Source: Bacteroidales bacterium (GTDB lineage: Bacteria; Bacteroidota; Bacteroidia; Bacteroidales; Tenuifilaceae). Taken from it: a stretch of 64,000 nt of DNA. Numbering within the stretch: the stretch's first letter is position 1; every line of letters begins with the position of its first letter. The stretch is taken from assembly GCA_013141385.1 (NCBI GenBank), contig JABFRB010000002.1, positions 434,001 through 498,000 on the forward strand, in the 5' to 3' direction. The position numbers and the translations under genes were made by a program. Of the stretch, positions 269-43,192 are shown piece by piece. The notes under the pieces are model-generated. The model was not told the origin of the DNA. It searched no databases and was given only the letters and a program-made list of their open reading frames with translations.

Positions 269-1870
269 TTAGAACCTAATTCTGAGTTGCCCATAGATTG
301 TGTTAAATCTATCTTTTTGTTGAAAAGTTCCTTCGTAGTTTACGGATAGTAAGATATTCTTATAGATTTGCCATGAAACATTTATATCACCTACTTGTTG
401 ATGGATATCTAACTTGCTTATTAAAAGATCGTAATCTAAAAAACGACATCCAAGTTCAGCTTGAAATTTCCCTTTTAACAGGACTCGGGAAATGTTAATG
501 CCGTAAATTTCTCCTATTATATAGTTCGATTTCAAATAGGTACCTGAAACAGTAGCTGAGATATTTATGCCTGGAATATTGTAATAGGTTAAATAGCCGT
601 ATGCGTTGTAGGTAGGATGTGGATCCGATTTCAGAGATCGATAACCTCCTTGTAATCCAAACATAATGTTCTTTGTAATCTGGTAATTTGCTTGAAGTCT
701 GTAGCTTTGTCGTTTCTCCTTTTCAAAAGTGCTATCTATTAGGGTCTTGAATGACTCATAGTAAATAATGTTTTTTCGTGCATCGTATGAGCCAGTTAAA
801 GTTAACCTTTTAGTCATCCTATATCGTAACGACAGGTACATTCCTGTAAGATTTGCGGTACTTTGAGGTTGATTATTCTTTACTTTATATAAGTCTAATT
901 CGAATGTACTATAAAAGTAAATGTTCTTAATAAGTGAGTTTGAATGCTGTAGGTAAAGGAATCTACGATCAGTTTTGGAACCATTCATCTGATTCATGAA
1001 CGCCACTGAACTCTCGGTAAATGTATTTTCTGATTTAGTATCAAATGCCAAATATGCTCCATATTGAAGGAGTTTGGAGTTAAATCCATAATCCATATAA
1101 TCTGGTCTTGAACCAACAACAGCACCAAAACCAAATCCTTTTATCTTCTTATCAAATTGAAGTCCATCCATCGCTCCAATACTGGAAATCCTAGAATTCA
1201 ATTTACGACCAAAGCTGATTTGAGTAGTTTTGTTAAGGTCGTATCTAACTGCCAAATTATATACTTTCAGAGCATTAAAAACATTGCTTTTTACATCAGC
1301 CCAATCTCCAATCTTATGACGAAATGATAAATAACTTTCAAAAGACAATCTTGAGTTTGAGATGTTGTCAGCATTAATCGAAAATGTATATCGAAAGAGT
1401 TGAGAATTTTTGGCTGTAGTATTTGAGAAATATGAATAGGAATTAGCTGAAATACTCCCCCTAACTTTTTCACTGTATTCGTTATCTATATGCATTTTAT
1501 CTGGTTTTTTAGTCTCTTGAATTTGATTCTTAGTATCAAGTTTTTCAATAACCTTTCCTTGCTGATTTTCTTTAACAATTTTGGGCTTTGCTATAATCTT
1601 ATCGGTAACAGAAAGACTTACTTGCGATAAAAATGAGCAAACACAGGATATTGACGACAGGTTATTAACCTTCAGAATTGGTGTTAAATTACTGTTGGGA
1701 GAGGAGTAGAGCGTATCGCCAATAGAGATACCTTTAGTGGAATTGAATTTTACATACACATTTTCGGAACTCATAAATGTTACTTGACCAGCTATTTGCA
1801 CACCAGTCACTTGTCCGAAAAGCGTATTACCAAAGGCTATAATGCAAATAGCAAAGAATATCTTTTTCAT
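269..1870 (-). CDS. Outer-membrane beta-barrel protein linked to the multihaem cytochromes
   Basis: This 533-residue protein starts with a clear signal peptide (cleavage likely after Gly19, before Gln20). Residues 22-90 form a small beta-rich domain with two close cysteines (Cys-Val-Cys) that do not make a haem motif. Residues 95-130 are a charged Lys/Gln linker. From about 140 to the end there are repeating amphipathic strands with many aromatic residues, and the last residue is Phe, as in outer-membrane barrels. I infer 16 to 20 strands but cannot count them surely. It is the last gene of the minus-strand cytochrome cluster, 172 bp after the 22-haem cytochrome, with a hairpin between. By analogy with porin-cytochrome conduits such as MtrB or PioB it could let cytochrome reach the outer surface. 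No sequence kinship to MtrB can be shown here. Confidence 0.72.
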   Translation of the reverse strand: MKKIFFAICIIAFGNTLFGQVTGVQIAGQVTFMSSENVYVKFNSTKGISIGDTLYSSPNSNLTPILKVNNLSSISCVCSFLSQVSLSVTDKIIAKPKIVKENQQGKVIEKLDTKNQIQETKKPDKMHIDNEYSEKVRGSISANSYSYFSNTTAKNSQLFRYTFSINADNISNSRLSFESYLSFRHKIGDWADVKSNVFNALKVYNLAVRYDLNKTTQISFGRKLNSRISSIGAMDGLQFDKKIKGFGFGAVVGSRPDYMDYGFNSKLLQYGAYLAFDTKSENTFTESSVAFMNQMNGSKTDRRFLYLQHSNSLIKNIYFYSTFELDLYKVKNNQPQSTANLTGMYLSLRYRMTKRLTLTGSYDARKNIIYYESFKTLIDSTFEKEKRQSYRLQANYQITKNIMFGLQGGYRSLKSDPHPTYNAYGYLTYYNIPGINISATVSGTYLKSNYIIGEIYGINISRVLLKGKFQAELGCRFLDYDLLISKLDIHQQVGDINVSWQIYKNILLSVNYEGTFQQKDRFNTIYGQLRIRF

Positions 1871-1976
1871 CTGTACAGAAATTCATAAATAATTACTATA
1901 GAATTAGTTATCATTTCTCATCTGAATGATACTAATTACCTAGGCTCAGATGAACCCCAAAGGGCTCAGCGAAGCT

Positions 1977-2030
1977 AAATGTCCATGTTTTGATCATTGT
2001 GCTTGGTGTTCTTTATCAACATGGACATTT
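1977..2030 (-). terminator. Hairpin between cytochrome gene and barrel gene
   Basis: Two perfect 13-base arms, AAATGTCCATGTT at 1977-1989 and its complement at 2018-2030, flank a 28-base loop. It lies 12 bases after the stop codon of the 22-haem cytochrome. There is only a weak T run, so it may act as a partial terminator or an mRNA 3' end stabiliser that lowers barrel expression relative to the cytochromes. Confidence 0.55.
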
Positions 2031-2042
2031 CATAAATCAACA

Positions 2043-3713
2043 TTAATCACTGGTACCTCGTGGATGACATTGGAAGCATGCAGCACTAGTATATGAATAT
2101 CCAGTTCTCCCTCGGTGTTTATTATCCATATCTGTTTTATTATGCTCGTGACAGGTAATACATGTAAACTGCGCATAACTCGAAGGATTTGAATGACAGT
2201 CAGTGCATGAGTTCCATTGATTTCTATGTTTTCCAGAATATATTGGAAATGATTGGCTATCGTGTTGTAGATATGATGCCGGTTTCCAACCGGGATTAGT
2301 TGTATGGCATTGTGTACATACGCTTGAAAATCCTAATGTTTGATGGTTAGGATTGACCGTCTTATTGTAATCAGTTTGATGGCATGTGATACAATCCGAT
2401 GATGTGGAACTATAGTTTCCTTTATGACAATCATTACAAGTCGGAGTGGAATGCCCTAAGGTAAGCGCAAAACTGTTGTGATTAAAGGTTGTTGGTTTCC
2501 AGCCCGGATTAGTTGAATGACATTGAGTACATGACGTTGAAAAACCTGAAGTTATGTGGTTTGGATTGGTTGTGGATTGAAAATCCTTTTGATGGCATGA
2601 ATAGCAATCCGAAGAAGTTGAGGCATAATTGCCGTTGATATGACAATCTGTACATTTTGGGCCAGAGTGACCTAACGTAAGAGGAAATTTGCTATGGTCG
2701 ATTTTGGCTGGAGTCCAACCTGGATTGGTTGTATGGCACTGCGTGCAAACTGTTGAGAAACCTGAGGTACTATGGTTGGGATTATTAGTTCCTGCATAAT
2801 CCTTTTGGTGGCATGTGTAGCAATCGGTAGATAATGAACTATATGTACCGCTTGTATGACAATCAATACATTTTGGGACAGAGTGACCTAATGTAAGAGG
2901 GAAACTTCCATGATCAAAACTTGCAGGCTTCCATCCAGGATTAAGAGTATGGCAATTCCCGCAAGTTGTAGGAAAACTGGATGCGCTATGATTTGGATCT
3001 GTTGTTGAGGTGTAATCCTTTTGATGACATGAGTAACAGTCAGTTTTTGCATCTGAATATCTACCTGTTGTGTGACAATCAGAACATTTTGGAGTTGCAT
3101 GTCCTTGTACAAGAGCAAAGAAACTATGATTAAAACCTGTACCATTCCATTGCATAGAGGTTGATGGATGGCAAGTATAACAATCTTCGGAAAATCCTGC
3201 CTGAATGTGATTGGGATTTGTGGTTGCCATGTAGTTTTGCCTGTGGCAGTCAATGCAATTTACGCCAGCAACATCAAAACTAGTTTGACTCTCTGACTTA
3301 TGGCACTGAATGCAGTCGGCAGTTTTGTGAGCACCTAACAATGGGAAGTGGCTCAATTGGTGAATTTCGCCTATATTGTTTACCAACCATGAATTTGGAG
3401 TGTGACAATGTGAGCAGTCAGGGACAGTTGTTGTTTTATGCACATCTGTATGACATTCGTTGCATTTGTTTTTTGCTTCCTTAAATATAAGATTTTTATG
3501 ACATTGTCTACAACTCACATCAGCATGATGACCAACAAGCGGAAATTTAGTTGTGTTGTGGTCAAAGGAGTATGTTTCCTTATCAAGTTGCCAACCTTTG
3601 GAACTATGACATGTTTTGCAACTAACTTTAAAATCAGCACCATGAGGCGATTGGGTCTTCTGATTTAAAACGATTAGCAATGCAGGGATGATCAAGAGTG
3701 ACAAGATTCGCAT
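2043..3713 (-). CDS. Secreted multihaem c-type cytochrome with 22 CxxCH motifs
   Basis: This 556-residue protein has a hydrophobic N-terminal signal (residues 1-20) and 22 CxxCH haem c attachment motifs, the first at Cys32 and the last at Cys546, so one haem per about 24 residues. Almost nothing else is present, so it should be a haem-dense wire-like protein in the periplasm or on the cell surface. Residues 153-517 are five tandem three-haem modules of 71-77 residues, each with CxxCH, a NPNH turn, CxxCH, NPGWKP, a D-H pair, the LTLGH signature and a third CxxCH. Extra His residues (NPNH, DHxxF, LGH) are likely distal haem ligands. The start ATG lies inside the end of the upstream 23-haem gene (22 bp overlap), which points to coupled translation. 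The family is that of cytochrome c3-like doubled-CXXCH proteins; electron partner and acceptor are inferred. Confidence 0.88.
   Translation of the reverse strand: MRILSLLIIPALLIVLNQKTQSPHGADFKVSCKTCHSSKGWQLDKETYSFDHNTTKFPLVGHHADVSCRQCHKNLIFKEAKNKCNECHTDVHKTTTVPDCSHCHTPNSWLVNNIGEIHQLSHFPLLGAHKTADCIQCHKSESQTSFDVAGVNCIDCHRQNYMATTNPNHIQAGFSEDCYTCHPSTSMQWNGTGFNHSFFALVQGHATPKCSDCHTTGRYSDAKTDCYSCHQKDYTSTTDPNHSASSFPTTCGNCHTLNPGWKPASFDHGSFPLTLGHSVPKCIDCHTSGTYSSLSTDCYTCHQKDYAGTNNPNHSTSGFSTVCTQCHTTNPGWTPAKIDHSKFPLTLGHSGPKCTDCHINGNYASTSSDCYSCHQKDFQSTTNPNHITSGFSTSCTQCHSTNPGWKPTTFNHNSFALTLGHSTPTCNDCHKGNYSSTSSDCITCHQTDYNKTVNPNHQTLGFSSVCTQCHTTNPGWKPASYLQHDSQSFPIYSGKHRNQWNSCTDCHSNPSSYAQFTCITCHEHNKTDMDNKHRGRTGYSYTSAACFQCHPRGTSD
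2163..3257 (-). repeat. Five in-frame tandem repeats (about 216 bp) inside the 22-haem cytochrome
   Basis: The coding DNA for residues 153-517 repeats with a period of 213-231 bp. Units B and C are both exactly 72 residues and differ at roughly a quarter of positions; D is 71. The outer two units are more diverged. This is direct evidence that the protein grew by duplication of a three-haem block, and the copy number could vary between strains by recombination. Confidence 0.8.
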
Positions 3714-5512
3714 GTGAAAGTTTTTAGTTTATATTTAACATAAGTCCGTGATCCTTCTTGTTGCAGTTTATGGCATTTTATGCAAGGTACGCTAATATGT
3801 TTACCATCAAGTTTAAAAGCTGCTATATTGTGATCGAATTTAGAATCATTCCAATTATCAGTACTATGACATTCAGTACAATTTGTTATCCCGTTTTTTT
3901 CAAATTGCTTAAAGTGATTATCGGTATGGCAACTTGAACAATTTGTTGGTAATCCAGAAAATTTTTGTTGTTCAATGCCATTAGCATCTTTTTTAAAGTG
4001 ACATTCTTTACAGTTTTGTTTAAGATGAGCACCAGTTAGTTTAAAGTTGGTTTTTGAGTGATCGAATGAAACATCTTCCCATTGGGCTTCATTATGACAG
4101 ATTTTGCAATTTGAGTTGGGATAGTATTTTGATGGAATATATGTTTGGTGTATATCGGTATGGCAATCTTTGCAATTATTACCAATATCCTTGAAACTCC
4201 ACTTTTCCTGCTTTTTGTGACATTCATTACATGCTGTGGCTTTATGAGCACCCAAAAGCGGAAAGAAACTTTTATTGTGCTGCTCAAAGGTGTAAGTGAC
4301 GAAATTAAATCCCTTCACAACATGGCATTGCGAACAATCAGGTGACTCCCCGTTTTTAGAAAATTGATTATTGTGGTAATCGGTATGACAATCTTTGCAA
4401 TTTTTCCCAATATTCCTGAAACTCCATTTCTCCTGTTTCTTATGACATTGGTTACAAGTTACTGGTGCATGAGCGCCAAGTAGAGGGAATGAACCTACAT
4501 TATGCTGTTCAATTGTAAATGAGTATAAATCAAAACCTTTTGTGGTATGGCATTGGGAGCAGTCAGGTGAAATGTTGTTTTTAACGAATTGATTGTTGTG
4601 GTAATCGGTATGACAATCGGAACAACGATCATGTTTAATTGGGTCAGTAAGTTTTGTCTTATGGCACGATTTGCAGTCAACGCTAAGATGTTTATCCACC
4701 AGGTTGAAGTTTGTCTTACTGTGATCAAAGTTTTTGCCCTTAATTGCATGGAATGATTCCTCGCTATGGCATTGACGGCAATTCTGCCCGAACTGATTCT
4801 GATGAGGATCTTTATGGCAACTTGTACAATTAGTATGCGCAACTCCCTGAAATTCCTGAAATCTTTTCCCGTCTTTCAAATCAACTTTATGGCATTTTAA
4901 ACACTCCACATTAACATGTTTTCCCACCAATTGAAATTTAGCGTTAGCATGATTAAATCTAGTGGCTGGCTTAAATGCATCAGGATTATGACAGTTCAAG
5001 CAGGAGGAGGAAAGCGTTTTTTGGTGATAATCTTCGTGGCAGGTTAAACATTCCTTATTTACACCCATGTAGGTGTATTTTTTTGACTTTATCTTCGAAT
5101 CGGAAATGAATTTAGCATTATGACAATCTTTACATTCCTTTTTAGAATGGGGAAGAGACAAAGGAAATCCAGTAAGATTATGGTTAAAAGTTTTAACATC
5201 AAGGCGAATAAGCTGAAAGTTTTTTCCATGATGATCGTTATGGCAGTCAAAACATTGTTTGCCTTTAACATCGGTTGATGAATGATACCCTTTTTGAAGA
5301 CTAATACTTGCTTGTATTTCGGTATGGCAAGCCAAACATTTTTCACTAGATACTTTGCTGCCGAGAACATGGCATTGAGTACAATTTGAAATACCTTCGA
5401 GATGCGAATGAGGGTTAGATAAATCACCGGGTGAAATTTGCGCTGTGGCGTTAAAAAACAGCAACATCAACGTAAGAAAAACTCCTAAAGTTATTCCTGA
5501 TTTATCGTGCAT
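3692..5512 (-). CDS. Secreted multihaem c-type cytochrome with 23 CxxCH motifs
   Basis: This 606-residue protein has a signal peptide ending near Ala-Thr-Ala (residues 22-24) before Gln25, then 23 CxxCH motifs from Cys44 to the last residues (a CESCH motif sits one residue from the C terminus). Recurrent short phrases (CHTDYHNNQF, CSQCH, FDHSKTNF, LLGAH) show an older, more diverged repeat structure than in its neighbour. The extra His in each phrase fits bis-His haem ligation. It is preceded by the flavoprotein gene (24 bp gap) and overlaps the 22-haem gene by 22 bp. Together the two proteins could carry 45 haems. I infer a periplasm-spanning or surface electron carrier fed by the membrane cytochrome b and flavoprotein encoded just upstream. 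Confidence 0.88.
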   Translation of the reverse strand: MHDKSGITLGVFLTLMLLFFNATAQISPGDLSNPHSHLEGISNCTQCHVLGSKVSSEKCLACHTEIQASISLQKGYHSSTDVKGKQCFDCHNDHHGKNFQLIRLDVKTFNHNLTGFPLSLPHSKKECKDCHNAKFISDSKIKSKKYTYMGVNKECLTCHEDYHQKTLSSSCLNCHNPDAFKPATRFNHANAKFQLVGKHVNVECLKCHKVDLKDGKRFQEFQGVAHTNCTSCHKDPHQNQFGQNCRQCHSEESFHAIKGKNFDHSKTNFNLVDKHLSVDCKSCHKTKLTDPIKHDRCSDCHTDYHNNQFVKNNISPDCSQCHTTKGFDLYSFTIEQHNVGSFPLLGAHAPVTCNQCHKKQEKWSFRNIGKNCKDCHTDYHNNQFSKNGESPDCSQCHVVKGFNFVTYTFEQHNKSFFPLLGAHKATACNECHKKQEKWSFKDIGNNCKDCHTDIHQTYIPSKYYPNSNCKICHNEAQWEDVSFDHSKTNFKLTGAHLKQNCKECHFKKDANGIEQQKFSGLPTNCSSCHTDNHFKQFEKNGITNCTECHSTDNWNDSKFDHNIAAFKLDGKHISVPCIKCHKLQQEGSRTYVKYKLKTFTCESCHS

Positions 5513-5536
5513 ATTCGTTTAGTTTTTGTCTTACCA

Positions 5537-6883
5537 CTAGTGTTTTAAAACTGTTTCACCAAATTTCTTCGTAATTTTAATTCCCGCTTTTTCAAGAAAT
5601 TGAGTTGGTAGTTCGCCCCCTGCAAAGATATAAACAAGATCATTTTTTAATGTGAGATTTTCACCCTCTTTACCAACCGAAAGTATAACAGTATCGTCTT
5701 CGATTGATAAAAGATTTGAACTTAGCCTAACCTCAATCCTTCCCTCAGCCACAGCCTTATTCAAGGCCATACTATTTTGTGGTTTAATGCGATTGAAAAC
5801 CTCATTGCGGTAGGAGAGGATTACATGGTTTTGATCTGCTAGGAGTAGGGCTGATTCAACAGCAGAGTCGCCACCTCCTACAACAATTACATGTTTACTA
5901 GATATTGCCTCGGGTTCCAAAAGGCGATACGCCACTTTTTCTTTCATCTCTCCTGGGATATTCAATTTTCGAGGTGTTCCGCGTCGTCCTATTGCCAGTA
6001 ATACAGTTGCAGAGGTATGTTGATCACCCTTTAATGTAACCACTTTAAATATCTCATCTTCAGAAATAATAGAATCGACCTTGGAATTCTCATTGACGGT
6101 AATATTGTTTTTCTTCAGTACGGTTTGCCAAAGATCAAGCAGCTCAGTTTTACTAGTTTCATAAAGTTTGATTTTCCCGAAAAGGGGCAAATCCATTGGA
6201 GATGTCATCACAATTTTTTTTCTGGGAAAAGTGAATACAGTTCCTCCAAGGGTATCCTGTTCCAGTAGTAAAAACTTTAACCCATGCTTTTTTGCCATAA
6301 GACTTCCTGATATACCAGCAGGACCTGCACCTATAATGATCAAATCGTATGAGGCGTTATGATTATTTTTTATTGATTTAACTATGTTTTCAACAGCTTG
6401 CTTACCTTGCTCAACTGAATTCTTTATGAGCCCCATTCCTCCTAACTCCCCTGCAATAAAGATTCCTGGCACGTTAGTCTCAAAAGTCTGGTTTACATGA
6501 GGAAGTTCAACACCACGTTTCTCAGTTCCTATGCGTAAGCTAATGGCTTCGGTTGGACAAGCATGAAAACAAGCTCCGTGCCCAATACACTGGGAAGCAT
6601 TGATGATGGTTGCTTTACCATTTCTTATTCCTAGAATATCATGTTCAGGACAAGCCGCAACGCATGCTCCTGTTGCTATACAACTATTTATGTCAACTAC
6701 TGGATGAAGTGAGATGGGTTCGTGAAGGCCATCTTCTTTTGCTTTCTTTATTTTTTCATCAACGATTTTTGATTCTCTCTTTTTCTTACGCAGATAAATT
6801 GCAACTACAACAATACAAAGGATTGCTGCAAAAGAGTAAATCAATATACTTTCAATTAATTGTTCCATACTCAAAAAATCCAT
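5537..6883 (-). CDS. Membrane-anchored FAD oxidoreductase with ferredoxin-like domain and permuted flavin fold
   Basis: The 448-residue protein has one N-terminal membrane helix (about 11-31), a two-cluster ferredoxin-like domain (about 62-118) and a thioredoxin-reductase-like part with FAD motif GAGPAG (185-190) and NAD(P) motif GGGDSA (about 335-345). Each ferredoxin motif has only three Cys: Cys68, Cys74, Cys78-Pro with Thr71 in the usual second position, and Cys99, Cys105, Cys109-Pro with His102. The segment VPGIFIAGE (138-146), which in thioredoxin reductases closes the FAD domain at the C terminus, stands here before the FAD motif, while the C terminus stops short, suggesting a circular permutation. 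No CxxC redox-active disulfide is seen, so this is not a real thioredoxin reductase. It overlaps the cytochrome b gene by 13 bp. Likely role: electron transfer between NAD(P)H and the membrane or haem chain. A later ATG (residue 6) is an alternative start. Confidence 0.82.
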   Translation of the reverse strand: MDFLSMEQLIESILIYSFAAILCIVVVAIYLRKKKRESKIVDEKIKKAKEDGLHEPISLHPVVDINSCIATGACVAACPEHDILGIRNGKATIINASQCIGHGACFHACPTEAISLRIGTEKRGVELPHVNQTFETNVPGIFIAGELGGMGLIKNSVEQGKQAVENIVKSIKNNHNASYDLIIIGAGPAGISGSLMAKKHGLKFLLLEQDTLGGTVFTFPRKKIVMTSPMDLPLFGKIKLYETSKTELLDLWQTVLKKNNITVNENSKVDSIISEDEIFKVVTLKGDQHTSATVLLAIGRRGTPRKLNIPGEMKEKVAYRLLEPEAISSKHVIVVGGGDSAVESALLLADQNHVILSYRNEVFNRIKPQNSMALNKAVAEGRIEVRLSSNLLSIEDDTVILSVGKEGENLTLKNDLVYIFAGGELPTQFLEKAGIKITKKFGETVLKH

Positions 6884-7740
6884 CTATAACCAAATGCAAT
6901 AGTTACAGCAACATGAATAATCATTATAATTAGCATTACAAGTGCAAAAGGAGAATGAACCACATGCCAGTATTTGAATAAATTTTGCACCGTATCGAGT
7001 CGTTCAATTTTCCGATTCAGCGTGATATCGTTTTTAACCAGGGCAAGTATCTTTTTATATTCAGTTCTGGTTAGATTATTCTTTTTTAGTAAGGTCTTAA
7101 CTGTGTAAATAGATTTACGATCATCGAAATATTTTCTAATATAACGGACAATTGCAAATTTATGATATAATTCAACTTTCTTTTTAATGGAATCGGCTAA
7201 AATGTTATAGCTTTCCTCATCAAGGTTGTAAGATTTTCTTACTATACCTGCTACATCGCTTTTCATCTCCCTAACTTCATTTAGGCTAAGCTCACGACCT
7301 TCAATTGATCTTGGAATTTGGATATAAATGAACCGTCCGATTATCCCACTCAAAAAAACGGCAACCATGCTCCAGAAACTTATAGCAACTAACCCACCAA
7401 ACTTAAAGGCAGTATGAAAAAGAATTAGTATTGGACCCAATGTGCATAGGAAGATGTGAAATTCGAGCCAGTGTTTTAGTAGTCCCAGTCGTGATAATAA
7501 CCGATATCTTTTCCGAACCATATAAATACTTACCCCAATAATCATTGATAAAGATCCTAAAATTCCCATTCCATGACCCCAAATGCCACTCGGTTTTAAT
7601 AGGCTATGATCCGGGTGATAAAATCTTTCCTCAACGCTAACTTTGTAGTAAGATATTCCATTATAAAGCAGTACAATTAGTGTGGTTACTACAATAATAA
7701 CTAATATACTTAAAAATATTCTGTGAGCGATTTTAGACAT
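6871..7740 (-). CDS. Integral membrane b-type cytochrome-like protein
   Basis: This 289-residue protein has about five membrane helices (near 8-28, 54-75, 92-112, 115-138 and 260-283) and a charged cytoplasmic loop of about 110 residues between the last two. His95 and His109 lie 14 apart on the third helix and His262 and His276 lie 14 apart on the last helix. This is the spacing of the two-haem four-helix arrangement in cytochrome b of bc1-type complexes, so two b haems are likely. His56 and His90 are also near the membrane. It is the first gene of the five-gene redox operon and overlaps the flavoprotein gene by 13 bp. I infer a quinone-interacting module that passes electrons across the inner membrane to the multihaem cytochromes. 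Direction of flow cannot be read from sequence. Confidence 0.75.
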   Translation of the reverse strand: MSKIAHRIFLSILVIIVVTTLIVLLYNGISYYKVSVEERFYHPDHSLLKPSGIWGHGMGILGSLSMIIGVSIYMVRKRYRLLSRLGLLKHWLEFHIFLCTLGPILILFHTAFKFGGLVAISFWSMVAVFLSGIIGRFIYIQIPRSIEGRELSLNEVREMKSDVAGIVRKSYNLDEESYNILADSIKKKVELYHKFAIVRYIRKYFDDRKSIYTVKTLLKKNNLTRTEYKKILALVKNDITLNRKIERLDTVQNLFKYWHVVHSPFALVMLIIMIIHVAVTIAFGYRWIF

Positions 7741-13387: not shown

Positions 13388-14557
13388 ATGAAAAGAATAG
13401 TACTAGTACTCATCGCTTTTTGCTTATCGCAAATTATATACAGCCAAACCAATACATTTCCTGCTACTGGTAATGTTGGGATTGGGACGACAACGCCAAA
13501 TAGCAAGATAGAAGTATACGAAGGGAATTTTAGAATCTCGAAAGTTGCGGGTGTAGGTGGCACATTTGGACAAATAGAGTGGTATCAAATGCATGGTACA
13601 GGTCAAGGATTAGCAGCATCTATTGAAGCATATAGAGCTCCTAGTAATTGGAAGAAATCATCCATAATTTTTAATACAAGCGATGATATTAATCTAGTTG
13701 AACGAATGCGTATTAATTATGATGGCAATGTTGGGATCGGAACAACAATACCCTCTACTAAATTAGAAGCAACTGGAACGATTAGCTCTTCAATAGCGTC
13801 AGCAAATGTCGTTTATTTTAATGGTTATATTAATGGAACGTATCCGAATAGAGTAACATTGGGTACATCTGATTGGAGTGGATATGCTTCATTATGGAAT
13901 AGTGGTAGTGTTAAAACAGTTCATTTTAATAGTAGTGGGGATTCATACTTTAATGGCGGCAATGTTGGTATTGGGACAACAACCCCCACTCAAAAATTGC
14001 ACATATCAAATATTGGTGGTAGTTCTGCGACCAGTGGAACTATACAAAATGGTATGATTAGACTTTATGAAGAAGGTTTTGGTAATGTATTAGATATTGG
14101 GATTACTTCAAATAATGCAGGTAATTCTTGGATACAAGCGGGTTTTAAATTTGACTTGAGCGTTAATAAATCATTGTTATTAAATCCTAATGGGGGCAAC
14201 GTCGGCATTGGCACTACCACTCCTCAGAACAAACTTGATGTAGCAGGTACTATCCGTTGCACTGAGGTAAAGGTTGTGGCATTGCCATGGTCAGACTTTG
14301 TCTTCCACCCCACCTACAAACTCCGCACACTTGGCGAGGTGGAGCAGTTTATCAAAGCCAACAATCATCTTCCCGAAATCCCTACAGAGAGCGAGGTTAA
14401 ACAGAATGGCGTTGGCCTTGGTGAGATGAACGCTAAGTTGTTGCAAAAGATTGAAGAGTTAACACTTTATATGATTGAGCAGAATAAGAAGATTGAGAGA
14501 GTTGAAGCACAGAATAATCTATTAATGAAAGAGGTGGAGCAATTAAAGGCTAAATAG
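13388..14557 (+). CDS. Secreted repeat protein with GNVGIGTTTP modules and C-terminal coiled coil
   Basis: The 389-residue protein has a signal peptide ending near Tyr18-Ser19 before Gln20. The motif GNVGIGTTTP (one copy with TTIP) occurs four times, at about residues 28, 112, 191 and 270, giving modules of about 80 residues. Residues 290-340 hold the conserved tail seen after such modules in Bacteroidota (a YKLRTLGEVEQFI segment followed by NNHLPEIP), and residues 345-389 form a charged coiled coil. The architecture resembles phage tail-fibre or trimeric fibre proteins with a C-terminal trimerisation region, but no S74 peptidase motif is present. The location is probably the cell surface; function unknown. 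It is monocistronic, flanked by the palindrome upstream and a hairpin downstream. Confidence 0.7.
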   Translation: MKRIVLVLIAFCLSQIIYSQTNTFPATGNVGIGTTTPNSKIEVYEGNFRISKVAGVGGTFGQIEWYQMHGTGQGLAASIEAYRAPSNWKKSSIIFNTSDDINLVERMRINYDGNVGIGTTIPSTKLEATGTISSSIASANVVYFNGYINGTYPNRVTLGTSDWSGYASLWNSGSVKTVHFNSSGDSYFNGGNVGIGTTTPTQKLHISNIGGSSATSGTIQNGMIRLYEEGFGNVLDIGITSNNAGNSWIQAGFKFDLSVNKSLLLNPNGGNVGIGTTTPQNKLDVAGTIRCTEVKVVALPWSDFVFHPTYKLRTLGEVEQFIKANNHLPEIPTESEVKQNGVGLGEMNAKLLQKIEELTLYMIEQNKKIERVEAQNNLLMKEVEQLKAK

Positions 14558-40765: not shown

Positions 40766-41068
40766 TTATAAGTCTTTTACCCTGTTTTTTAAATCCATTT
40801 GTTCGTGGAGAATTCTTACTATTTCTATTTCGTTTTCTTCAATCTTGCGGTAAAAAATAATATGTCTACCTGCTTTAAACCCTAATAAACAGTCCATTAT
40901 TCCAAAATAACTTTTGCCCAAATCAGGATTTGATGCAACCTCTTTGCAGTTCCCTAAAAGCATATGATAGTAAATATCTGCCCTATTCTCAGACCATTTA
41001 TTTCGAGTGTAATTCCATATCTGAGTTAAATCATCAACTGCTTTATTTGTAAATCTATATCTAGCCAT
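40766..41068 (-). CDS. parE: RelE/ParE family toxin
   Basis: The 100-residue protein has the ParE-type fold: start RYRFTNKAVDDLTQIWNYT, central NPDLGKSY region, basic KAGRHIIFYRK strand and the ending IVRILHEQMDLKNR. Family members poison gyrase (ParE) or cut mRNA on the ribosome (RelE). It overlaps the antitoxin gene by 8 bp with the antitoxin first, the usual ParDE order. It is the distal gene of the last of three repeat-bordered units. Confidence 0.9.
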   Translation of the reverse strand: MARYRFTNKAVDDLTQIWNYTRNKWSENRADIYYHMLLGNCKEVASNPDLGKSYFGIMDCLLGFKAGRHIIFYRKIEENEIEIVRILHEQMDLKNRVKDL

Positions 41069-41312
41069 TCAAATTCTGTTTGGCTTTTAATTTTTCTAAA
41101 TGTGCCTCAGGATTGAAATCACAAGCAATTCCACTGTCAATCCCTTCTTGAATGGCTTCTCTTAAAGCAATCATTTTATTTTCTTCCTCTTCTAAAAGCC
41201 TTAGACCTGCTCTAACTACCTCACTAGCATTTTTATATCTTCCAGCAGATATTTTGTTTTGAATAAAATTATCAAAATGGCTTCCCAATGATATTGAAGT
41301 GTTTCTATTCAT
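41061..41312 (-). CDS. parD: ParD-like ribbon-helix-helix antitoxin
   Basis: The 83-residue protein has an N-terminal ribbon-helix-helix region (MNRNTSISLGSHFDNFI, then AGRYKNASEVVRAGLRLLEEEE), the classic ParD/CC2985 signature, and a C-terminal part (about 50-83) that would bind ParE. It should autorepress its promoter. It is followed by parE with an 8 bp overlap. Upstream lies copy 2 of the border repeat. Confidence 0.9.
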   Translation of the reverse strand: MNRNTSISLGSHFDNFIQNKISAGRYKNASEVVRAGLRLLEEEENKMIALREAIQEGIDSGIACDFNPEAHLEKLKAKQNLNG

Positions 41313-41485: not shown

Positions 41486-41815
41486 TTAAGCAATTCTAAA
41501 TTCTTCGTCAAGGAGTTCAACGTTGAAATTTACTTTTGCTTTCAAAGCTTTGAACACACGTAAGATAGTCTCAATCGTTACGTTTTTTGCATTCCTCTCA
41601 ATACGGGAGATTTGAGATTTTTGAACGCCAATCATTGCCCCAAGTTCCGATTGTGTCAAATGTCTCTCTTTGCGAGTACGTTTAATCATTTCACCCAATA
41701 GGTCAAGTCGAAGTTCGTATTCGTACTTGTCTCTTTTTGGGGTGCCAATTTTTCCAAGGTGTTTGTCTTTGGCTTGGTCTAATGTATATATTTTTAGTTT
41801 ATTCGAATTATTCAT
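41486..41815 (-). CDS. higA: HigA-like XRE-family antitoxin
   Basis: The 109-residue protein has a helix-turn-helix XRE domain at about 45-100 (RKERHLTQSELGAMIGVQKSQISRIER in two parts), followed by a beta tail. I chose the ATG at 41815, which overlaps the toxin end by 8 bp; an upstream TTG is in frame but unlikely. It follows its toxin, which is the HigBA order, and would bind both toxin and promoter. Confidence 0.88.
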   Translation of the reverse strand: MNNSNKLKIYTLDQAKDKHLGKIGTPKRDKYEYELRLDLLGEMIKRTRKERHLTQSELGAMIGVQKSQISRIERNAKNVTIETILRVFKALKAKVNFNVELLDEEFRIA

Positions 41816-42161
41816 GTTTACTATTATTTTTCTGTTCAAAATAAAGTTTCATAATTGCCCGCGCTTTTTCAATCTCTCCTTTAGGGACTTTATCCGTTTT
41901 CTTTATGATTCCATGTGTCGCAACTACCAATGTTTCTATTTGTTCTGTCTTATCCCAAAATGAAAAAATCCGATAATATGTTTTATTGTATTTAGTCCTG
42001 AACTCCCAAATATCATTGTCTAATTTTTTTAGCAACTCAGGATCATTGATATACTTTGATTTGTCAATATTATAAAAGATTTTTTCCTTTGCCTTATCAT
42101 CAAGTGTGTCCAAAAATCCCCATACTTCTTCAAGTAGAATAACTTCAAATTTCTGCTTCAT
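41808..42161 (-). CDS. higB: HigB-like toxin (phage Gp49-like / DUF891)
   Basis: The 117-residue protein fits the Gp49-like HigB family: FEVILLEEVWGFLDTL at the start, KLDNDIWEFRTKYNKTYYRIFSFW in the middle (in parts) and VVATHGIIKKTDKVPKGEIEKA near the end, a strongly conserved helix. Such toxins cut mRNA on the ribosome. The toxin precedes the antitoxin with an 8 bp overlap. The unit lies between two copies of the border repeat. Confidence 0.9.
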   Translation of the reverse strand: MKQKFEVILLEEVWGFLDTLDDKAKEKIFYNIDKSKYINDPELLKKLDNDIWEFRTKYNKTYYRIFSFWDKTEQIETLVVATHGIIKKTDKVPKGEIEKARAIMKLYFEQKNNSKHE

Positions 42162-42397: not shown

Positions 42398-43192
42398 TCA
42401 ATCCCTAAAAAACCTTACGCTTAATCCTAATCCTTTATCACCTTTTTCAAGTTCCGCATGTCCGCTATATGCACTTATTTTGTAGTGCCATGCTTCCTTT
42501 TCTCCTTCGTCGGTACTGCTCCAGAAATGCCCACTTGCTCCAAGGCTGTTAAATGTACCACGGGTAAAGCGCCATCCACCATAAGTACCCTCAAAACCGC
42601 TGCTACCACCAACTTTTATCTGCTCAAAAACCGCTTTATCGTTTCCACCTAGGTCAGCGTGTAAAGTTTCCCATTCAGCTTTTGTAGGTAGATGCCAACC
42701 GCTGGGTGCTAATGCCTTGGCTGCCTCCCAATCGTATAGGTATCCATTTTTAACCACATTTTTCTCCTCGTTATCATAGGACCAACATTTTCCTATGTCG
42801 GCAATCTTAGCATAATTATCGGCCATGATAATCTGTTTGCCAATTTTTATTATTCTATAGGTAATTCCCTCTCTTTCATCGGTATATGTACCATGACCGC
42901 ATATTTGGCAAATTCCATTTACAATTTGATGCTGATTTATTCGAGTCTCTTTGCAGTTTGAACATTTCTCGCAATCCTTCTTCCAAGAGTGTTCAACTGC
43001 ACGAGTTTTACCACATTTATGACATTTTGTACAATCCTTCGACCAGTCGTGCTGGTTTTCGAATGTTGCACCACATTTTGAGCACTTTTCGCAATCGCTG
43101 GTTAGGATGTGTTGTTCGTCTCTGTTTTTACCACACTTGGAACATGTGCAATGATCCCATGTGTGTAACCCGATAATACATTTGAATGACAT
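42398..43192 (-). CDS. FISUMP-domain protein with N-terminal zinc-ribbon-like repeats
   Basis: The 264-residue protein has about five short repeats at the N terminus (residues 10-100), each with CxxC or CSKCG spaced by about 20 residues and a His-Trp/His pair, like tandem zinc ribbons. Residues 105-264 are the Fibrobacter major paralogue (FISUMP) domain: YRIIKIGKQIIMADN, a YDWEAA stretch, GWHLPTKAEW, the GFEGTYGGWR strand, FWSSTD and LSVRFFRD at the end. FISUMP domains usually sit in secreted proteins, but here there is no signal peptide. The gene is upstream of copy 3 of the border repeat. Function unknown. Confidence 0.8.
   Translation of the reverse strand: MSFKCIIGLHTWDHCTCSKCGKNRDEQHILTSDCEKCSKCGATFENQHDWSKDCTKCHKCGKTRAVEHSWKKDCEKCSNCKETRINQHQIVNGICQICGHGTYTDEREGITYRIIKIGKQIIMADNYAKIADIGKCWSYDNEEKNVVKNGYLYDWEAAKALAPSGWHLPTKAEWETLHADLGGNDKAVFEQIKVGGSSGFEGTYGGWRFTRGTFNSLGASGHFWSSTDEGEKEAWHYKISAYSGHAELEKGDKGLGLSVRFFRD

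Follow-up and report, generated by a model that had tools for sequence, protein, structure and literature searches.

A five-gene operon on the minus strand of a Bacteroidales genome (G000, 5.5 Mb), lying at positions 269-7740 of the 64-kb stretch of DNA analysed here (the window), probably encodes a PCC3-type trans-envelope electron conduit that would draw its electrons from NAD(P)H in the cytoplasm and pass them outwards, acting as a redox sink. By gene calling the order is CytB, FNR, MHC1, MHC2 and OMP, which code respectively for a cytochrome b (6871-7740, 289 amino acids (aa)), a flavoprotein (5537-6883, 448 aa), a first multihaem cytochrome (3692-5512, 606 aa with 23 CxxCH motifs), a second one (2043-3713, 556 aa with 22 CxxCH motifs) and an outer-membrane beta-barrel protein (269-1870, 533 aa). 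CytB and FNR overlap by 13 bp (6871-6883) and the coding sequences of MHC1 and MHC2 by 22 bp (3692-3713), the ATG of MHC2 falling within the codons of the last CxxCH of MHC1; the gap between MHC2 and OMP is 172 bp in the window, compared to a median of 9 bp across 59 related loci. The first-pass annotation of this DNA had given the five minus-strand genes, their two overlaps and both motif counts correctly, and its calls of a diheme-type cytochrome b, a permuted flavoprotein and an outer-membrane barrel were upheld by the evidence presented below. Of its larger proposal, a conduit from the inner membrane to the outer surface, the gene content, barrel model, motifs and conservation lend support, and the transfer of electrons to the outside is a step which we infer.

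The operon is a conserved module, whose five families are rarely found apart. In a sample of 395 genomes from the Bacteroidota, the phylum to which the relatives of the host belong, CytB was strong (E < 1e-60) in 40 and weak in 3 more. Full-length FNR (E <= 1e-60) was present in 39 of the 40 strong-CytB genomes and in none of the other 355; OMP was found in 35 of the 40 and gave a single match of 30 residues elsewhere. Because the same families recur together across the phylum, a fortuitous array of unrelated redox genes was ruled out. When named bacterial and archaeal genomes were scanned with FNR, 396 relatives were found and the best 80 were taken as loci, all of which carry Bacteroidota names, save three labelled uncultured bacterium. 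Gene calling was carried out on these 80 loci, on longer stretches of 35 of the 39 other strong-CytB genomes (G199 was taken later, and G125, G141 and G444 only as a short locus) and on five stretches of the host and relatives. Short loci (L001-L011), incomplete frames and frames with X were dropped before counting, as were L158 and L159, whose flavoprotein or cytochrome b ends duplicate those of L013 and L025. As the loci came from scans keeping the best FNR or CytB matches, the presence of FNR in 115 of 118 is a biased figure, whereas the tallies from the 395 genomes were not so selected. The commonest gene order was CytB-FNR-H-H-OMP (H denoting a cytochrome), seen in 55 of 120 loci, many of the 120 being cut at contig ends, and in 14 loci FNR lay downstream of the cytochromes, typically as CytB-H-H-OMP-FNR. 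Loss of the barrel from beside the cytochromes in relatives had been named at the outset as something that would speak against a conduit; OMP was present in 85 of the 86 loci in which the second cytochrome was complete and was followed by 2.5 kb or more of sequence (two duplicates removed). In Emticicia oligotrophica the operon, with 23 and 40 haems, is on a 100-kb record (pEMTOL02), adjoining ccsA.

In the mechanism that we propose, FNR would oxidise NAD(P)H in the cytoplasm by means of its FAD and pass single electrons, via two Fe-S clusters of which one has a conserved Cys3His motif, to CytB, whose two stacked b haems would take them across the inner membrane, as in ferric reductases and NOX enzymes. 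MHC1, with 20 or 23 c haems, would span the periplasm, the 22-strand barrel of OMP would hold the passage through the outer membrane and MHC2 would be an exported wire of three-haem cassettes reaching to the surface or beyond, where reducing equivalents could be disposed of to Fe(III), Mn(IV), humics or partners. Because flow from cytoplasm to periplasm over CytB would run with the membrane potential, outward flow should conserve no energy, and a redox sink would therefore fit better than a respiratory chain. No catalytic reductase subunit is encoded in the operon, as had first been noted, and NrfA, when looked for in the host genome, was not found; on these two grounds a terminal reductase operon was ruled out. 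A redox sink would, by analogy, agree with metal reduction by Labilibaculum, a genus in which two genomes (L066, L071) have the operon and of which isolates were reported to divert a minor fraction of their electrons to Fe(III), and in one case to Mn(IV) as well, while fermenting glucose (PMC5760507); that paper points to a predicted ferric reductase and NrfHA alongside the oxidases.

Flow in the opposite direction, with electrons from an extracellular donor (Fe(II) or another cell) passing by way of MHC2, OMP and MHC1 to CytB and thence to quinone or NAD(P)+, seems to us unlikely, although it has precedents, as PCC3 is described from Fe(II) oxidisers and modelled there as running inwards (PMC5566968), and one PCC3 inner-membrane gene of Sideroxydans CL21 is reported as up during iron oxidation (PMC12442390). 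Haem wires are also reversible, and the oxidases of the host could accept the electrons. The whole case against inward flow is one of energetics: reduction of NAD(P)+ from a donor at about 0 V, against the membrane potential, would be uphill.

The properties of CytB are part of the support for the outward, NAD(P)H-fed conduit. The two histidine pairs H95-x13-H109 and H262-x13-H276 are invariant across 71 aligned CytB proteins, and among 111 complete CytB proteins scoring above 200 bits, two WX3HX13H motifs were present in 104 and SGxxG in all 111. By alignment and motif count, the first of these haem-ligand motifs runs in the window from W91 to H109 (7414-7470, minus strand) and the second from W258 to H276 (6913-6969, minus strand); the SGxxG motif, as defined in PMC5566968, was placed by alignment at S131-G135 (SGIIG; 7336-7350, minus strand). 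Five hydropathy segments were seen. On this published motif signature CytB is of the PCC3/PCC4 inner-membrane-protein kind. A Pfam scan of CytB found no ferric-reductase domain, its only hit being a chance-level one to another family (E 0.0099), and a PDB sequence search gave no hit up to E 1. Distant homologues of 241-296 aa occur on plasmids of Pseudomonadota and Spirosoma; among 57 plasmid records with a match, six regions were opened, the neighbouring domains were scanned in four of them, and the CytB profile matched the six relatives at 99.7% (E 1.4e-25). The neighbour of the CytB relative is a FAD_binding_6 + NAD_binding_1 + Fer2 protein in Methylophaga, Alteromonas and Spirosoma, a Pyr_redox + cNMP + Fer4 fusion in Sphingobium and an annotated 2Fe-2S protein in Acetobacter and Qipengyuania. 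Because partners of different fold occupy the same place, this is good evidence from gene neighbourhoods for electron exchange between cytochromes b of this kind and a flavoprotein in the cytoplasm.

The same plasmids gave an observation of a separate kind. At L162, L163, L165 and L167 (from Methylophaga, Acetobacter, Qipengyuania and Spirosoma respectively) an annotated 2Fe-2S or FAD/NAD(P)-binding protein, a short CytB relative and a 7-haem cytochrome form triads near copper-resistance or heavy-metal genes, and a role of these triads in metal reduction or resistance is possible. At L164 (an Alteromonas macleodii plasmid) the triad is just upstream of a NiFe hydrogenase operon, with one hypothetical gene between them, which suggests that the two are linked.

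FNR matched Pyr_redox_3 (4e-41) and Fer4_10 (1e-8) in Pfam and TIGR04018 in NCBIfam (4e-48), the last at 163.7 bits, below the family cut-off of 339.9. It has FAD and NAD(P) Rossmann domains, matching PDB entry 7a76 (6e-27) and YpdA/TrxR proteins. Alignment to three YpdA/thioredoxin-reductase-like flavoproteins in the PDB shows that its FAD domain is circularly permuted and departs from the usual linear order, in which the C-terminal segment of that domain comes last: residues 180-443 correspond to their N-terminal and middle portions, whereas their C-terminal end is matched by stretches within residues 122-161. These short alignments to the C-terminal end are individually weak, yet they fall at the same place in all three flavoproteins. 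The permuted segment (residues 126-167; 6383-6508, minus strand), in which the C-terminal end of the FAD domain has been moved ahead of the N-terminal Rossmann motif, is covered by the FNR profile in 36 further FNR proteins. In a separate group of proteins of about 830-880 aa (L174-L176) a single chain carries the permuted FAD/NAD(P) domain together with a hydrophobic part and Fe-S motifs, the match being to FNR profile positions of about 127-438 at 208-242 bits, so the permutation is not confined to the operon; no CxxCH proteins were found in the three 6-kb stretches inspected.

Two Fe-S motifs, C-x2-T-x2-C-x3-CP and C-x2-H-x2-C-x3-CP, lie in residues 68-110 of FNR (6554-6682, minus strand). 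Counted over 114 complete, de-duplicated members of the family, the His of motif 2 was kept in all 114, and the variable position of motif 1 was T in 71, S in 29, C in 13 and A in 1; the 13 proteins with Cys suggest that cluster 1 had a canonical ancestor. No CxxC follows the Fe-S motifs in any of the 114, and FNR as a disulfide enzyme like thioredoxin reductase was ruled out for this reason. R359, R365 and K367 are invariant in 81 FNR sequences, within an NAD(P) site that is YpdA-like. These fall at the positions that bind the phosphate of NADPH in related enzymes, and NADPH is preferred by related flavoproteins. Because the three residues are invariant in such a site, NADPH is more likely than NADH to be the donor. 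FNR would be anchored in the membrane by a single N-terminal hydropathy segment; this is followed by LRKKKR, which by the positive-inside rule would place its redox domains in the cytoplasm.

The conservation of FNR bears on another explanation, unlikely in our view, in which CytB is a quinol oxidase or quinone reductase and FNR a regulator or a side input. A quinone-active role was proposed by He et al. from the HX13H motifs (PMC5566968), and PCC3 clusters are described as comprising a porin, two cytochromes and the inner-membrane protein (IMP), without a flavoprotein (PMC5566968, PMC12442390), a point that weighs against a conduit fed from NAD(P)H as well as for one fed from quinol. However, FNR is as conserved as CytB, being in 39 of the 40 genomes, it survives two gene orders (with the 14 loci in which it follows the cytochromes), and flavoproteins of other families lie next to the distant CytB relatives.

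In the outward conduit fed by FNR, the two multihaem cytochromes would carry electrons from CytB to the outside. All 46 cysteines of MHC1 and all 44 of MHC2 sit in CxxCH motifs, and both proteins were called secreted from their hydrophobic N-termini (hydropathy only). When CxxxCH and CxxxxCH were counted as putative haem sites along with CxxCH, 91 of 104 complete first cytochromes (MHC1) had 20 haems and 8 had 23. By contrast with this near-constant number, the 92 complete cytochromes in second place had 22 distinct haem numbers, from 10 to 73, and in 90 of the 92 the number was 3n+1; across all later cytochromes, extras included, 100 of 105 complete proteins followed this rule, which the first-pass annotation had not noticed. 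In the first set of 61, a haem number of 1 mod 3 was found in 43 by CxxCH alone and in 59 with the longer motifs, the two not conforming being L047 and L051, the frame of which holds unknown letters. The rule arises because fixed ends flank a variable run of three-haem units, each of about 72 aa with haem spacings of roughly 25, 31 and 16. Short-read assembly may collapse such repeats; five genomes in a single contig (L123, L125, L126, L137 and L177) gave 43, 28, 22, 37 and 34 haems respectively, all 1 mod 3.

A comparison of two close loci, L140 and L143, indicates how this variation may have arisen. Their flavoproteins are 98.2% identical and their MHC2 proteins have 31 and 43 haems; most corresponding units share 84-92% DNA identity (two share 65-69%), and L143 has an extra block of four units, the nearest copies of which are the preceding four units (66-84%), suggesting that MHC2 grew by in-frame duplication of whole cassettes. 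Most such duplications are, on unit identity, not recent, because among the 78 genes containing at least six units only 3 had a pair of units at 95% identity or more. The overlap of MHC1 with MHC2 is exactly -22 in 59 and -19 in 19 of 107 gene pairs, and the exactness of the 22-bp overlap suggests translational coupling. PDB sequence searches gave nothing at 0.001 for MHC2 and one hit for MHC1 (3ov0, 1.3e-4), and MHC1 scored 39.2 bits against TIGR03508, the DmsE family, the cut-off of which is 192.2.

Tentatively, we suggest that MHC2 might be a covalently continuous haem wire, the reach of which outside the cell would be set by its number of cassettes (3-24 three-haem cassettes plus one capping haem, gained or lost by in-frame duplication), that MHC1 might be fixed at 20 (or 23) haems to match the width of the periplasm, and that, with the permuted flavoprotein and the diheme cytochrome b, these might make up a transmembrane NAD(P)H oxidase with its acceptor beyond the outer membrane, as a widespread form of electron export in the Bacteroidota. 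The three-haem steps provide a natural series of wires with the same ends and varied length, which allows the length dependence of electron transfer to be measured.

OMP gave no Pfam or NCBIfam hit at 0.01 and no hit up to E 1 in a PDB sequence search. Its AlphaFold2 model, built with 53 sequences, has 22 barrel strands in residues 135-533 (mean pLDDT 83.6, pTM 0.63), a small N-terminal beta domain at residues 26-94 (1589-1795, minus strand) and a low-confidence linker joining this to the barrel, and the C-terminal Phe is nearly invariant. The model matched solved outer-membrane barrels, the best being a siderophore receptor (VIA-align Z 18.5 over 334 residues at rmsd 4.7); porins came within one Z of it and ushers followed closely, and MtrB was not among the fold matches listed, which shows nothing either way. 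Siderophore receptors are 22-strand barrels that enclose a plug domain. The OMP model has no plug-sized domain besides the N-terminal one of about 70 residues, and a hollow barrel of this predicted form could have room for a slim cytochrome.

That the cytochromes instead stay in the periplasm, storing electrons or supplying them to a ferric, copper or peroxide reductase there, with the barrel importing the substrate, is very unlikely, since, although metal-siderophore receptors are among the best barrel fold matches and the shorter CytB relatives lie with a 7-haem cytochrome near copper-resistance or heavy-metal genes, porins and ushers match the barrel about equally well, the modelled barrel has nothing of plug size beyond its N-terminal domain, the operon has no reductase and chains of 37-73 haems would be hard to explain without distance.

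A number of observations weigh against an outward conduit of this composition. The host has two COX1-family and two bd-oxidase genes and so has no dependence on an extracellular acceptor; because oxidase genes are present and NrfA is absent it is probably facultative. The Labilibaculum species tested on metals, among them the metal reducers L. manganireducens and L. filiforme, differ from the two in which the operon was seen. One long motif is missing in 7 of the 111 CytB proteins, the structure model of CytB is weak (pLDDT 76, pTM 0.58) and Foldseek with this weak model found no solved fold at E <= 0.001. The haem number of MHC1 was 5, 17 or 19 in 5 of the 104 first cytochromes, and exceptions to 3n+1 are L042 (8 haems, after the barrel), L047 (30 haems, in the place of MHC2), L127 (14 haems, apparently part of a split first cytochrome) and L151 and L161 (9 and 12 haems, third cytochromes beside a regular one). 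The sole locus of the 86 to lack OMP, L152, has an unassigned 605-aa frame in the place of the barrel. OMP was missed in five of the 40 strong-CytB genomes (G278, G349, G399, G420 and G439), three of which have weak barrel matches of 28-39 bits to the profile built here (L149, L150 and L156). CytB was found in only 7 of 60 relatives, the host included, and not in the genus mate G004. At L177, CytB is about 15 kb away from the other genes and the first cytochrome has only 16 haems in the frame found, and at L178 (G199) a shortened CytB directly adjoins the C-terminal end of a barrel. No multihaem cytochrome was found in the 10 kb fetched from G199, nor any full-length FNR genome-wide at the cut-off used, and L178 is likely to be a remnant of the operon.

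The metal reduction reported for isolates of the Bacteroidota lacks a demonstrated route (PMC5760507), and the five-gene operon is a candidate for one, present in about one in ten of the sampled genomes (40 of 395). If the outward conduit is real, PCC3-type conduits could be driven by NAD(P)H and not by quinol, and their energetics would shift from respiration to redox balancing.

Further families recur beside the operon, part of them identified, and three were the most frequent. A family with tetratricopeptide repeat (TPR) members directly follows CytB in 17 loci (two members were scanned), a 244-aa protein of no known kind is found in 18 loci, and a family of about 1050 aa, of which the member scanned is a ResB/CcsA haem-attachment protein, in six. 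RNA and tRNA scans of the 64-kb window found none. Elsewhere in the window, two small gene pairs on the minus strand (40766-41312 and 41486-42161) resemble toxin-antitoxin pairs of the ParDE and HigBA kinds, their translations having been read by eye, a 389-aa protein on the plus strand (13388-14557) repeats an NVGIGTT motif and gave no hit in Pfam at 0.01, and on the minus strand at 42398-43192 a run of cysteine-pair repeats precedes a Fib_succ_major domain.

Among known systems the closest is PCC3, described as a porin, a periplasmic cytochrome (median 21 haems), an extracellular cytochrome (median 34, up to 85) and an inner-membrane protein (He et al. 2017, PMC5566968). The first-pass annotation took each known system to combine a single barrel with a single decahaem cytochrome, which overlooks PCC3, with its two large cytochromes beside a porin and an inner-membrane protein of the same kind as CytB. 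The IMP of PCC3 and PCC4 is given as about 300 aa with five helices, with WX3HX13H on helices 3 and 5 and SGXXG on helix 4 (PMC5566968), and the CytB of the window resembles it in its two WX3HX13H motifs, SGxxG and five hydropathy segments; the outer-membrane barrel in the same cluster, seen in 85 of 86 loci, is a further likeness. The 23 haems of MHC1 (20 in most relatives) are near to the median of 21 of the PCC3 periplasmic cytochrome, and the periplasmic placing of MHC1 is putative. The second cytochrome of PCC3 is the larger and the more variable; MHC2 ranges over 10-73 haems, in the window has one haem fewer than MHC1, and its extracellular placing is putative. PCC3 cytochromes are said to hold repeats and to be able to span the intermembrane space (He et al. 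2017, PMC5566968), and the outer one may extend further outward (PMC10734462). As described in PMC5566968, PCC3 is reported from Alpha-, Beta- and Gammaproteobacteria, whereas the operon is in Bacteroidota, its porins mostly have many predicted strands (up to 42, compared to 22 in OMP) and its function is likewise putative. The Gallionellaceae PCC3 have periplasmic cytochromes of 21, 24 and 27 haems, and the extracellular numbers given there are off a single 3n+1 series (PMC10734462).

PCC4 is also alike in having a porin, cytochromes, an IMP with the same motifs and other redox proteins in the cluster, but its three cytochromes are smaller (4, 5 and 10 haems) and none is described as extracellular (PMC5566968). 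A PCC4 subgroup has an Fe-S gene, of another family than FNR, upstream of the IMP (PMC5566968), so that, in principle, a redox partner for the IMP has a precedent. The Sphingobium locus, with its 10-haem cytochromes and Fer4 fusion, looks closer to PCC4. A cluster of six cytochromes and a barrel in a metagenome-assembled genome (MAG) of the Bacteroidetes is a different one by its description (PMC8258643).

Membership of MtrCAB/MtoAB was ruled out by the haem numbers of 23 and 22, compared to the decahaem MtrA-like proteins. OMP gave neither a Pfam hit nor a sequence hit to a solved structure that would tie it to MtrB, and its fold lists speak neither for nor against an MtrB-like barrel. MtrCAB, MtoAB and PioAB are alike in placing a barrel and multihaem cytochromes across the outer membrane, and have decahaem cytochromes, the 26-strand MtrB and CymA as the quinol-side partner. 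OmbB-OmaB-OmcB (the Pcc of Geobacter) is alike in its barrel with an inner and an outer cytochrome, and its cluster is not known to include a flavoprotein or diheme-b protein. The cytochromes of that cluster have 8 and 12 haems (PMC5566968).

The YpdA/thioredoxin-reductase-like flavoproteins have FAD and NAD(P) Rossmann domains in common with FNR and differ in linear order. The NOX/ferric reductase superfamily (FRE, MsrQ-Fre) is alike in its cytoplasmic NAD(P)H-FAD unit and two transmembrane b haems on H-x13-H pairs, and the passage of electrons from NAD(P)H and FAD to transmembrane haem in NOX and FRE is known biochemistry. Unlike these, the operon would pass its electrons to a multihaem chain and a barrel, and its flavoprotein is of another fold; CytB would work like a member of this superfamily, yet is not filed as one. 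We found no printed description of the Bacteroidota operon, of its permuted flavoprotein or of three-haem quantisation, preprints and most subscription journals lying outside the search. Likened by motifs and gene content to PCC3 as that system is described, the operon appears to be a PCC3-like variant in which FNR, with its invariant Cys/His Fe-S motif, is likely to be the point of electron entry, and it goes beyond PCC3 as described in the permuted NAD(P)H flavoprotein, in phylum and in the three-haem quantisation.

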